From Fluviicola sp. (GTDB lineage Bacteria > Bacteroidota > Bacteroidia > Flavobacteriales_D > Crocinitomicaceae): a stretch of DNA of 64,000 nucleotides. This document shows, in pieces, positions 24,049-60,829 of the stretch. The first letter of the stretch is position 1. Every line of letters begins with the position of its first letter. Made by a program: the position numbers and the translations under genes. The stretch covers positions 124,001 to 188,000 of the forward strand of contig JARWZO010000010.1 in NCBI GenBank assembly GCA_029866325.1. Direction: 5' to 3'. The notes beneath the pieces were generated by a model. It made no database searches and had not been told where the DNA came from. It saw only the letters and a list, made by a program, of their open reading frames with translations.

Positions 24049-24417
24049 CTACAATTTTTCTTTTAATTTATTGATAAACGAATTAATCATCTTACCCATT
24101 TCCTGAATCTCTAGTTCTAAAGAACCGATCAATTCAGTATTTGCTGAAAGTTCAAGTTCTCTTGTCAGTACCAATTGGGTATCCAATTCGTAAAGTGAGC
24201 CTCTTGCGATCTTCAGGAAATTCAAAAAACTCAATGTGCTTCTTCCAAAGCCTTCTGCTATATTACTTGGAACAGAAACAGAGCAACGTCTCATTTGACT
24301 TGTAATACCGTATACTTCCTCTTTTGGAAACGACATTGTCAATTCATAGACTTGTTTACTCAGCAAGATTCCTCTTTGCCAAATTTTCAAGTCTCTGTAT
24401 GATTTTACTTCACTCAT
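24049..24417 (-). CDS. Four-helix-bundle protein (23S rRNA-IVP / S23 family)
   Basis: 122 aa, all-helical. The family signature is present: SYRDLKIWQRGILLSKQVYE at the N-terminus, FPKEEVYGITSQMRRCSVSV with PSNIAEGFGR, then LNFLKIARGSLYELDTQL. This is the family encoded in 23S rRNA intervening sequences, and it is related to Avd of diversity-generating retroelements (family knowledge). The protein is thought to bind nucleic acid as a multimer; its job here is unknown. It sits between sdhA and sdhB on the same strand, flanked by inverted TTAGTGA-type heptamer arrays, which marks it as an insertion into the operon. No reverse transcriptase or variable repeat is nearby, so it is not a DGR accessory gene here. 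Confidence 0.9.
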   Translation of the reverse strand: MSEVKSYRDLKIWQRGILLSKQVYELTMSFPKEEVYGITSQMRRCSVSVPSNIAEGFGRSTLSFLNFLKIARGSLYELDTQLVLTRELELSANTELIGSLELEIQEMGKMINSFINKLKEKL

Positions 24418-35152: not shown

Positions 35153-36391
35153 TTAATTTCCACCGATCAAACGATCCACATGCACATCCCCGAATGCATA
35201 GGGGATGTAGGCAAGTGAAGGAATTTTTTTAGTGAGAATAACCGGAGTAGTTTTGCCCAACGAAATTGTTCCGTGGGTATTCGATAATCCCATCGCGTAG
35301 GCTGCATTTATCGTAAGGGCATTGAGTGCTTCTTCCGGTGTCATTTTCATCTTGACGCAGCCTAAAGAAAAAATCATGCCTAAATTATCGCAAGGGGTTG
35401 AACCCGGATTAAAATCACTCGCCAACGCAACGGGAAGTCCGGCATCCATCATACCACGGGCATTCCCGAATGGAATACTCAAGAAATGCGAACAACCCGG
35501 AAGTAAGGTCGGCATGCAACCACTGTCTTTTAATGCAGCGATATCCGCTTCATCGCATTCTTCCAGGTGATCTACAGACAATGCGCCACATTCAACGGCT
35601 GCTTTCACGCCACCCAATATTGAAAACTGATTCACATGCACTTTCGGAGTCAAACCATGTGCTTTACCCGCTTGTAAAATGCGGGTCATTTCTTCTACCG
35701 AGAAATAATTGCGTTCGCAAAACACATCGATGTAATCAGCTAAGTTTTCTTCGGCAATTTTCGGAAGCATTTCATCAACAATCAGTTTGATGTAAGCTTC
35801 ATGGTCTTCTTTGTAAGCTTTCGGAAAAGCATGCGCTCCTAAAAAAGTTGCTTTAATGACAATTCCCGCTTCGGTTTTTAGGCGTTTAATTACACGCAAC
35901 ATTTTCAACTCGGCGTCCACGCTCAATCCATACCCCGATTTGATTTCCAGGGCTCCTGTACCATATGTTTTCATACGTTGAATGCGCACAAGCGCCTCTT
36001 CAAACAACTGATCTTCCGACATCCCTGCCAATTTTCCGGCCGAGTTCAAAATTCCACCGCCTTTTAGGGCAATTTCTTCGTACGAAAGTCCATTGATGCG
36101 ATCTACAAATTCTTCTTCGCGGCTGGCTGCAAACACGGTATGCGTATGTGCATCACAAAATGCAGGAAACACAAAACAACCTTCGGCGTCAATGATTTCC
36201 AAATCGCGCCAATCGGTGATTCCACCCCATTCACTCATTGGTCCGTAAGCCACAATGACTCCGTCTTCCAACGCTAAAAAAGCATCGTCAATAGCAGGAA
36301 CGGTTTTCATTGCCGATCCAGCCACGTAGGCCGGGAAATCTTCGCCGACTTGCAGCAAGGACTTGATATTTTTGATTAAGATTTTCGCCAT
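35153..36391 (-). CDS. hutI: Imidazolonepropionase
   Basis: Third step of histidine degradation: hydrolyses imidazolone-5-propionate to N-formimino-L-glutamate. 412 aa, amidohydrolase fold. Metal ligands are visible as His82 and His84 (FCDAHTHTVF), with further family motifs EIKSGYGLS, ATFLGAHAFP, KVHVNQFSILGG and the metal aspartate in ASDFNPGS. No other hut gene is in the window, so the pathway genes are dispersed, as is common in this phylum (family knowledge). The gene start is 35 bp from the left inverted repeat of the GxxExxY element, so its promoter may lie in or across that repeat. Confidence 0.96.
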   Translation of the reverse strand: MAKILIKNIKSLLQVGEDFPAYVAGSAMKTVPAIDDAFLALEDGVIVAYGPMSEWGGITDWRDLEIIDAEGCFVFPAFCDAHTHTVFAASREEEFVDRINGLSYEEIALKGGGILNSAGKLAGMSEDQLFEEALVRIQRMKTYGTGALEIKSGYGLSVDAELKMLRVIKRLKTEAGIVIKATFLGAHAFPKAYKEDHEAYIKLIVDEMLPKIAEENLADYIDVFCERNYFSVEEMTRILQAGKAHGLTPKVHVNQFSILGGVKAAVECGALSVDHLEECDEADIAALKDSGCMPTLLPGCSHFLSIPFGNARGMMDAGLPVALASDFNPGSTPCDNLGMIFSLGCVKMKMTPEEALNALTINAAYAMGLSNTHGTISLGKTTPVILTKKIPSLAYIPYAFGDVHVDRLIGGN

Positions 36392-36426: not shown

Positions 36427-36965
36427 CCCACAGATTCACAGATTTCCGCGTTCCTAACGGCAGCGCTTTTTTCGTGTTGGATTGACAAATTATATTATTC
36501 AACCGCTTTGGATAAATCATCTTTTTGAGTAAATTAAATGGAATGAAAACATTTATTCTTAAAGAAGAGACTTATCAAATTATTGGTCTTTGCATGGATG
36601 TCCACTCTGAATTGGGCAGTGGTTTTACTGAAATTGTATACAAGGATGCTCTTGAGTATGAGTTCAAAATGAGAAAAATCCATTTTGAAAGAGAAAGGGA
36701 GTTTACAGTTCGCTATAAAGACATCTTTTTACCTCATAAATATTACGCTGATTTTGTAGTCATGAACAACATTGTTTTAGAGGTTAAAACGGTTAATTCA
36801 TTGGTTAAAGAACACATGGAACAAACGATAAATTATTTATGTGTTTCCGGATTAAATGTCGGTTTGCTTGTCAATTTCCGCAACAGTAAACTTGAATATA
36901 AGCGCTTGGTTTATTAATCTATTTAGCGCTGCCGTTAGGAGCGCGGAAATCTGGGCATCTGTGGG
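36427..36965. mobile_element. GxxExxY cassette with 41-bp terminal inverted repeats
   Basis: The 41-bp ends 36427-36467 and 36925-36965 are inverted copies of each other with 38 of 41 positions identical (mismatches at three sites only). The outer part contains two octamers, CACAGATT CACAGATT. The inner part is TCCTAACGGCAGCGCT. The 539-bp element holds one gene (GxxExxY) and no transposase. It lies between hutI and an unrelated membrane-protein gene; its right end is 13 bp from that gene's stop. The same architecture, with other unit sequences, is seen around the four-helix-bundle gene. Confidence 0.8.
36543..36917 (+). CDS. GxxExxY protein (PD-(D/E)XK-like)
   Basis: 124 aa from the ATG at 36543; an upstream TTG would add six residues. 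The family-defining motif is present as GSGFTEIVY at residues 25-33. A PD-(D/E)XK-type core follows: Asp70 in YYADFVV, then Glu80-x-Lys82 in LEVKTV. The family is widespread in Bacteroidota and of unknown function; a nuclease fold is expected from the motif (family knowledge). It lies in opposite orientation to hutI and is enclosed by 41-bp inverted repeats, so it is the cargo of a small element. No toxin or antitoxin partner is adjacent. Confidence 0.9.
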   Translation: MKTFILKEETYQIIGLCMDVHSELGSGFTEIVYKDALEYEFKMRKIHFEREREFTVRYKDIFLPHKYYADFVVMNNIVLEVKTVNSLVKEHMEQTINYLCVSGLNVGLLVNFRNSKLEYKRLVY

Positions 36966-36978
36966 GAAGCTGTGCCTA

Positions 36979-37629
36979 TCATTTCAACTCCTCCAACTGC
37001 ATGCGGTAAACCCGTTGCAGGTTCGTATCGCAGGGTTCCTTCAGGAATTTTTCAACCAATTGTTTGAATGCGCGTTTGTTGCTGGAGTTTGTCTTGTCAA
37101 AATTATAAGTCGCCTGTGCCGAAACCATTTCCTGCAGCAATTTCGTACAATTGATCTTATTGGAAAAGCCGTTTTTCTTATCATTGGTAAGGATGATAAA
37201 ATTCTCTTCATCGCCCTCGATGTATTTAACCGAAAACGATTCCCCGATTTGAGGCGGCATTTCCAGTTCGTTTGCCGGATAAAAAGCATCACCGCTGTTT
37301 TCGAAATAGGTTTTCACGGTTTTTCCTTCCTTGGTTTTGATCAAACAATGATAATTGACCACCTGAACGTGATTGATGTAACTATTGGTATTCTCAACCC
37401 GTACAATCACACCGGTTCCCTTCACTCCATGGTTGTAAACGTATTCGGCGTTCCAATCGCCTCCGTAAATTAAGTTAATCACACCCCAAACAGGCAGCAA
37501 TAACGCTAGTTTTGAAGCTTTCGGGAACCGTTTTCTGCCCAAATACAAAATAAGGAGCATGAGAATGATGCTACAAGGCAAGATCAAAAAAGGATGCAAA
37601 GCACCAAAACGTAAGAAGCTAGAAGTCAT
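36979..37629 (-). CDS. Membrane protein of unknown function (216 aa)
   Basis: Two hydrophobic segments at the N-terminus (about 10-27 and 35-52: FLILPCSIILMLLILYLG, ALLLPVWGVINLIYG). A soluble region follows with KGTGVIVRVENTNSYINHV and KTYFENSGDAF, reminiscent of DUF3592-like proteins but not convincingly so. The C-terminal 70 residues are helical and charged. The likely location is the inner membrane with the soluble part on one side. Its 3' end is 13 bp from the GxxExxY element; its 5' end diverges from the CotH protein gene at 37775. Confidence 0.7.
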   Translation of the reverse strand: MTSSFLRFGALHPFLILPCSIILMLLILYLGRKRFPKASKLALLLPVWGVINLIYGGDWNAEYVYNHGVKGTGVIVRVENTNSYINHVQVVNYHCLIKTKEGKTVKTYFENSGDAFYPANELEMPPQIGESFSVKYIEGDEENFIILTNDKKNGFSNKINCTKLLQEMVSAQATYNFDKTNSSNKRAFKQLVEKFLKEPCDTNLQRVYRMQLEELK

Positions 37630-60490: not shown

Positions 60491-60829
60491 AGAGAAGATT
60501 TGTTGGTGCAATGTACACATTTTTGAATTTCTGCTACCGATTGACAGTTAAATAGCGCAACTCTTTCAGAATTTGACATACTGTGTGTTTTCCGCCACGA
60601 ATGCGCTAATAACACGCTATTTACCAATTACTTCGAATGACCCGCCAAAGCGGATCTTCACAGATTTGTGATGGAAACTTTGTTTCCGTCCATTCGCATT
60701 AAATTGAAGCGTACACATCAATTCGTGTATTCGTGAGAGACTAAGATGTGATCTTTAAATAGGAAATTACTCCTAAGTCTGATGGAAGTAACTCAAACGG
60801 CTCACCGGAATTTCTCTTAACTTTAGCTC
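60491..60829. other. Intergenic region with octamer remnants
   Basis: No gene. Two short repeat-like stretches: TTCACAGATTTGTGAT at about 60659, and AATTCGTGTATTCGTGAG at about 60719, the latter in 8-bp phase. TTCACAGATTT also occurs in the left end of the GxxExxY element, so this may be a decayed relative. Confidence 0.4.

Follow-up and report, generated by a model that had tools for sequence, protein, structure and literature searches.

The window, i.e., the whole stretch of 64,000 nucleotides of a Fluviicola sp. genome (G000; 4.68 Mb in 32 contigs) that was analysed, holds a small gene of the GxxExxY family (36543-36917, plus strand) between hutI (35153-36391, minus strand) and a gene at 36979-37629 (minus strand), to both of which it is antisense. 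A repeat search of the window showed that this gene is enclosed by two inverted arms of 41 nt each, at 36427-36467 (plus strand) and 36925-36965 (minus strand), which are 93% complementary (38/41) and lie 457 nt apart. The first-pass annotation had called this match far beyond chance, and our figures agree: left and right arm align with a score of 67, while the best inverted repeat at control places, computed with the same match/mismatch scores, reached 36 in 0/471 places of one locus set and 32 in 0/170 of another; moreover, the 17-bp tip ATCTGTGCATCTGTGGG with up to three mismatches has two sites in the window, which are the two element ends, for 0.12 expected. Each arm is bipartite, with CCCACAGAT-TCACAGAT as the tandem tip, followed on the inside by a 20-nt hairpin whose loop is GTTA. 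On the left, the tandem half-sites CCCACAGAT/TCACAGAT (36427-36443) precede the hairpin-forming stretch (36448-36467), and on the right the hairpin-forming stretch (36925-36944) is followed by the tandem half-sites (36949-36965), the inner one of which is degenerate (CCCAGAT), so that the strict tandem CAC motif used below fails on this arm. Both hairpins are of the type that we call B. The same annotation held that the ends enclose one small PD-(D/E)XK-like gene and nothing else, which stands: no other open reading frame of at least 70 aa in the ORF list of the window lies fully inside the arms. We chose the ATG at 36543 as the start codon, the ORF listing offering a TTG at 36525 as an alternative. 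In an Rfam scan of the window, a tRNA was the sole match and the CAC-repeat ends were unmatched. Finally, a probable second, gene-less element lies at 60594-60737 (ends set by eye), with the arms CACGAATGCGCTAAT / CACGAATACACGAAT of CACGAAT flavour, which is the commonest flavour of the sister species G003 among the matches listed.

The encoded protein is a clear member of TIGR04256/PF13366, with 135 bits against TIGR04256 (GxxExxY; cut-off 35; profile positions 2-116 of 116) and 126.8 bits against PF13366 (PDDEXK_3; cut-off 22; positions 2-116 of 117). The residues E31, D71, E81 and K83 (E81-x-K83; numbering of window positions 36540-36914) are invariant in 40/40 aligned proteins and, going by the motif of the PD-(D/E)XK superfamily, we take them to be catalytic. 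The predicted structure (pLDDT 96.2) has its closest fold in SSO0001 (4ic1; Foldseek E 6.3e-5 for 4ic1_B; VIA Z 9.9, 98 aligned, rmsd 3.5 for 4ic1_G), and further matches include many PD-(D/E)XK nucleases, among them BpuSI, MGME1 and Hjc, at Z 6-8. Matches to such a model establish a predicted fold, not a function; by this fold and the E...D...ExK site, the protein belongs to the PD-(D/E)XK superfamily, with nuclease activity as a prediction. Against the orthologue in G003, the window gene has a dN/dS of 0.07, and three other pairs gave 0.04-0.06 while two of the six pairs were saturated; the low values in four pairs out of six suggest that GxxExxY is under strong purifying selection. The protein matched no family of the anti-phage defence models of PADLOC-DB 2.0.0 at E 0.01 and had a weak match to PHROG 945, ‘endonuclease’ (E 6e-4). 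To our knowledge, this large family (PF13366) has no known function.

A search of the genome and of its relatives with the ends, as proposed in the first-pass annotation, returned copies both with and without the gene. Searched whole against G000, the window element gave 68 matches, nearly all of them on the 41-bp ends, while the 17-bp tip with up to two mismatches occurs at 128 sites (63 forward, 65 reverse; 0 + 0 for the reversed-pattern control); the idea that the ends are unique to the window locus was rejected on this count. In 53 inspected stretches around tip sites, which represent part of the 128, a script found 46 inverted end pairs, a few of them doubtful. The tip copies in these stretches are mostly gene-less inverted doublets of ~90-205 bp, built in the order CCCACAGATGCACAGATTTT, type A hairpin GCTCGGCTAACGCCCTCGCT, AT-rich spacer, type B hairpin AGCGCTGCCGTTAGGAGCGC and AAAATCTGTGCATCTGTGGG; the window element has a type B hairpin at both ends. 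By eye, the type B stem is changed on both sides in L021 (GCGTG/CACGC) and L014 (GCGTT/AACGC), and on one side in other copies. One doublet (L054, 339-468) is a hybrid with one CACAGAT and one CACGAAT end. Another palindrome, GTATCGGCTAGCCGATAC, adjoins with its variants the doublets L012, L013, L018, L020, L021, L023 and L024; its core CGGCTAGCCG has no occurrence in the window.

The genome search found three GxxExxY genes in G000, all three of them between inverted arms of tandem CAC-NNA[T/G] half-sites. Two have CACAGAT arms, i.e., the window gene, whose right arm includes the degenerate half-site, and the gene of a second element (L009, C17:8342-8961, 620 bp), which carries one type A and one variant type B hairpin. 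The third (L044), of the NNAG type, lies between ACACAAAGGCACAAAG and CTTTGTGCCTTTGTGG, the ends of another dispersed family, of which the end type CTTTGTGCCTTTGTGGT has 38 sites in G000 vs 3 in the control. Two other open reading frames are enclosed in the same manner: one of 204 aa in L045 (C21:96084-96979, 896 bp), whose 41-bp arms are 100% complementary, and one of 200 aa in L046 (C3:80500-81272, ends 773 bp apart), whose 35-nt arms are 86% complementary with one type A and one type B hairpin. Neither has a Pfam match above the cut-off. Both loci count against an element specific to GxxExxY and favour passive cargo, an explanation that we regard as unlikely, in which a different enzyme (RAYT or some other transposase) mobilises the doublets, or slippage or recombination copies them, and GxxExxY is one of several trapped genes. 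The homologues of the L045 frame speak against it: they occur in 11 other genomes (of 395), and in each case the CAC motif is missing within 900 nt; two of these 11 loci (L291 and L293) have another inverted repeat, with scores of 42 and 36. As for the enzyme, RAYT was tried as the mover and rejected, for none of the three Y1_Tnp matches in G000 has the CAC motif in its locus: the intact one (L164) lacks CAC arms, and L165 and L166 lack the motif.

To see how far the arrangement extends, we collected the best 80 of at least 521 confirmed relatives in genome contigs, a choice that makes these loci lean to the window's subfamily. In 64/79 of them (the 80th being too short), one or both arms of the best inverted repeat contain the tandem CAC motif. 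An inverted CAC motif lies on both sides within 400 nt in 60/80, compared with 0/206 other places in the same loci and 0/400 shuffles, but the motif of this count was written post hoc, after inspection of these very loci, and the fairer figure is a motif-free inverted-repeat score. With a threshold of 24, the latter is reached in 62/71 nearest loci vs 15/471 control places, and with a threshold of 32 in 46/71 vs 1/471, where the 71 loci are the 80 minus those with short flanks or N (L085, with runs of N and a false score, is thus excluded) and the control places mix GxxExxY and TIGR02436 loci. A first control, in which the upstream part of one locus was paired with the downstream part of another, had proved useless, since the motif is common to the loci, and was replaced by the other places in the same loci. 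In a second set of 70 loci from the window's family, picked by TIGR04256 score and from multi-copy genomes rather than by their arms, the score is at least 24 in 52 vs 4/170 control places, a lower rate of arms than in the nearest 80. With L146 and L158 added, the strict motif is present in both arms of 32/72 family loci and in neither arm of 25/72, and several of the motif-less loci carry other tandem arms (e.g., CACATAG or CGCAAAG). In most loci examined, the arms around GxxExxY are complementary.

According to their record titles, the nearest 80 come from Bacteroidota, Chlorobiota/Ignavibacteriae, Acidobacteria, Chlamydiota and Calditrichota, mostly metagenome bins with phyla as labelled. 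We did not count a locus labelled as gammaproteobacterial (L070, Glaciecola amylolytica CP034120) towards the breadth of the family, because its length equals that of G001, a genome of the window's own genus. Among eight plasmid records examined by eye, arms are clear in two, Bacteroides finegoldii (L333) and Bernardetia (L335), both with CAC-AGAG arms; they are weaker in Treponema (L329) and Fusobacteria (L331), while one flank of L332 and of L336 bears tandem repeats of CGC type and nothing convincing was seen in L330 and L334 (the gene ends of L330 and L332 being guessed). In viral contigs, 0 of 85 GxxExxY candidates were confirmed, and phages gave no GxxExxY match. An association of GxxExxY with CAC arms that spans many genera argues against passive cargo.

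Across these loci, an arm contains the 7-bp half-site CRC-NNA[T/G] in two or three copies. The commonest half-site tetramer is the same on the left and on the right in 54/79 loci (null mean 14.6, maximum 28 in 5,000 shuffles), and tandem half-sites are identical within an arm in 182/325 cases (null mean 51.6, maximum 71 in 2,000 shuffles), these tests resting on 113 loci, 79 of them with both arms, and on nulls that ignore the kinship between loci. Moreover, the last letter of the half-site, T or G, follows the GxxExxY protein tree. On a quick tree (151 proteins, 123 columns, with 77 of 148 inner forks open and two long branches meeting), it needs 3 changes over 121 labelled loci (shuffled mean 28.6, minimum 22), 4 over the 92 loci with both arms (mean 22.1, minimum 18) and 3 over 48 loci of the window's family (mean 13.7, minimum 10). 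Likewise, pairs of GxxExxY proteins from the same genome have a median identity of 61% when the letter is the same (18 pairs) and of 37% when it differs (18 pairs; p = 1.3e-5, with pairs that are not independent); as exceptions, two same-letter pairs within a genome are 32-33% identical. The middle letters look less stable, because the whole flavour requires 32 changes among 92 loci, a figure that comes with no shuffled control. A half-site letter that follows the protein tree is a further argument against passive cargo, while plain joint inheritance of ends and protein as one unit would also produce such a correlation. These two results, an end plan common to many GxxExxY genes outside G000 and a half-site tied to the protein tree, go beyond the first-pass annotation. 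The latter had described a non-autonomous element with a cargo gene; the shared ends, the gene-less copies and the variable sites described below bear out the element, while we do not favour cargo, since a gene linked in this way to its ends suggests a cognate pair.

In the genome of the sister species (G003, one contig of 4,551,443 bp), the window element occupies the same position (L146) and is 84% identical including the flanks. When the joined flanks of 14 elements of G000 were searched in G003, 10 sites were examined (L011, L012b, L027 and L030 being outside the ten). Sites L010, L013, L017, L019 and L021a are occupied in G003; at L010, the arms are CACAGAT in G000 and CACGAAT in G003 with nearly the same left junction, and at L019 the element is reversed. 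At L026, a 143-bp doublet in G000 corresponds in G003 to the same plan with a GxxExxY gene. Site L023 has a degenerate CACGAAT-like copy, while at L045, L020 and L024 the element is absent from G003, with unrelated sequence at the join and 0 motif sites at one mismatch. Elements bearing GxxExxY also differ, L009 of G000 being absent from G003 and L189 of G003 from G000. Element occupancy thus differs between sister species, and the ends are neither unique in the genome nor fixed in all relatives. The search for empty target sites suggested earlier was successful in part: there are sites occupied in one species and vacant in its sister, but no clean empty site was obtained, the flanks at the absent sites being too diverged to show the exact join. 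In G003, the counterpart of the L009 site (L349, 1690-1890) holds ~190 bp with a direct repeat near AAAAAGATAGTAATATTGCAATATTA at the two boundaries.

This variation also bears on a reading that we consider very unlikely, a host-serving system of fixed REP-like doublets (for folding, mRNA 3' ends, repair or defence) on which a domesticated nuclease acts, movement being rare or over. The strong purifying selection suggested by dN/dS, the window element common to two species at the same place and the conservation of arms but not of spacers would all suit it; several elements present in one sister species and absent from the other, as well as the lack of a match in PADLOC, speak against it.

In terms of copy number, the tandem motif has 128 sites in G000 (control 4) and 160 in G003 (control 2), twenty stretches of G003 (L227-L246) being outside all counts. 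GxxExxY is present in 51/80 genomes drawn from the family, and these have on average 12.1 tandem-motif sites vs 3.2 in the 29 genomes that lack it (controls 2.3 and 1.5), a difference with p = 4.6e-4, or 8.9e-4 minus G000 and G003, p-values that are not corrected for phylogeny or kinship. At least 10 sites occur in 14/51 genomes with the gene vs 3/29 without it (G027, G046 and G062). Few sites in most gene-bearing genomes and three site-rich genomes devoid of the gene argue against a strict dependence, and the three latter also favour passive cargo.

Junctions were studied in 37 elements, i.e., the 46 pairs minus nine with poor ends that were dropped by eye. None shows a direct duplication of 2-8 bp at its target, and we therefore rejected a MITE with target duplication; T is found at -1 in 36/37 and A at +1 in 34/37, and a YT before and an AR after the ends are conserved in the family. 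The spacers of 29 doublets are mostly unrelated (3/406 pairs alike), which is not expected from a simple cut-and-paste family. In three of the four pairs of gene copies compared within genomes, the similarity is confined to the gene itself or to the gene and a further ~60 bp (L113/L144, 85.5%; L112/L125; L065/L083), which again favours passive cargo, while in the fourth (L071/L073) the similarity extends ~85 bp downstream towards the arms, and the arms match in inverted order. The ends persist as the interior changes, a pattern not expected of plain transposon copies. As to the arms themselves, the two arms of a doublet share 3 private substitutions vs 2.6 expected from shuffled arms (46 pairs, G000). 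In the absence of any excess, the arms seem to decay independently, as they would if they drifted after insertion; this is evidence against a maintained stem, and arms conserved as a complementary pair are accordingly disfavoured for the doublets.

The same figure weighs on an RNA-level explanation, which we judge quite unlikely: the arms would form an RNA stem around the open reading frame and be cut by RNase III, as in the intervening sequences of 23S rRNA, insertion would be tolerated in operons, and the protein would serve the RNA or be vestigial. Complementary arms are a property of those intervening sequences too, and the arms considered here are complementary with flavours that agree. 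Furthermore, both neighbours are co-directed with GxxExxY in 72/133 loci, both opposite in 22 and mixed in 39 (p = 2e-7), same vs opposite orientation being 50 vs 8 in the nearest set and, more weakly, 22 vs 14 in the family set; co-directed neighbours favour either expression from host transcripts or this RNA-level account. TIGR02436, presumably the family of the 23S intervening-sequence ORFs, also has its genes between inverted arms, with an inverted-repeat score of at least 24 in 24/30 loci of the genus vs 15/471 controls. On the other side, the pairing of doublet arms is apparently not maintained in G000, the window gene is antisense to both neighbours, pairing explains neither the identical half-sites within an arm nor the link between letter and clade, and a low dN/dS makes a vestigial protein less likely. 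RNase III is reported to excise an intervening sequence (PMC4990558). With such elements carrying an S23 protein ORF, the GxxExxY loci share a small ORF in a short selfish element. The differences are that the elements studied here are not in rRNA, that their protein is unrelated and that the doublet arms show no sign of compensatory change.

The observations, then, are a gene that is repeatedly found with two inverted arms, in G000 and in many other genomes, and gene-less doublets that carry these arms and are dispersed across the genome. We give an even chance to the reading that GxxExxY and its arms form a minimal mobile element, similar to REPIN/RAYT except that a PD-(D/E)XK nuclease takes the role of the tyrosine transposase. 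The GxxExxY protein, probably in oligomeric form, would bind the tandem half-sites of both ends and cut there; through this cutting, any DNA flanked by two inverted arms would be excised and re-inserted into a YT|AR target without duplication, with host repair or recombination joining the DNA; the gene-less doublets would travel as non-autonomous passengers, in the manner of REPINs with RAYT transposases. We infer this binding, cutting, oligomeric state, joining and movement of the putative system from the arrangement of genes and ends, and the earlier suggestion that the protein acts on its own ends and that the unit moves by itself is likewise proposed here rather than established. We know of no lone nuclease with strand-joining activity, which counts against a self-sufficient mover, nor of a PD-(D/E)XK fold acting as lone transposase, TnsA of Tn7 working with a partner. 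With GxxExxY tied to its own DNA ends, a family with no known function gains a testable substrate; if the reading is true, the scattered single GxxExxY copies would be explained, the abundant CAC-repeat doublets would gain a meaning and a class of mobile elements would be driven by a nuclease fold.

A broader version, to which we give somewhat less than an even chance, holds that GxxExxY is the sole enzyme of very widespread minimal mobile elements: a nuclease of ~125 aa would read tandem CRC-NNA[T/G] at inverted ends, mobilise its own gene and swarms of gene-less doublets, and have split into groups of different specificity (NNAT, NNAG) that can be told from the ends, while a second family on the same plan would be the four-helix-bundle genes of TIGR02436, whose inverted arms consist of other tandem 7-8-mers. 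Such a gene lies in the window at 24061-24384 (minus strand), between inverted tandem repeats near TTAGTGGTTAG / TAGTGACTAGTGATTGG that score only 22, and G000 has seven TIGR02436 matches. None of the 30 TIGR02436 loci of the genus has the CAC motif on both sides, and TIGR02436 seems to be a second gene family on the same plan with other half-sites.

Among known systems, REPINs are doublets of ~100 bp able to fold as hairpins, with two inverted ends better conserved than the spacer, and REPIN-type ends also lie beside the partner RAYT gene (PMC3116915); inverted doublets, conserved ends, a less conserved spacer and ends beside the partner gene are all shared by the elements studied here. The latter differ in that the partner is a PD-(D/E)XK nuclease rather than an HUH tyrosine transposase, that the ends carry tandem CRC-NNA[T/G] half-sites and that G000 has three partner genes, each between its own arms. 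Given that the partner is not a Y1 transposase, the GxxExxY system is not a member of REPIN/RAYT. GTAG- and CGTC-tagged REPs are also dispersed palindromes, often close to each other and in opposite orientation, and RAYT genes can have long flanking inverted repeats unrelated to the GTAG repeats, the summary of PMC3733652 containing neither CAC half-sites nor GxxExxY. In G000, the intact RAYT-like gene of L164 (C3) has CGTCCC/GGGACG stretches on both sides (1313-1327 and 1989), distinct from the CAC ends. With MITEs and their parent insertion sequences, our elements share terminal inverted repeats and gene-less copies that have the ends of the gene-bearing element; unlike MITEs, they show no target duplication in 37 elements and have spacers mostly unrelated between copies. 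Literature searches, in which subscription journals were thinly covered, found no published account of arms around the GxxExxY family (TIGR04256/PF13366), which PMC8934634 and PMC12085832 name in passing. Finally, one genome (G031, C10; L168, 1200-2780) carries two DNA-identical GxxExxY copies in tandem, with a period of 699 bp, and between them lie short palindromes whose arms each contain about three half-sites.
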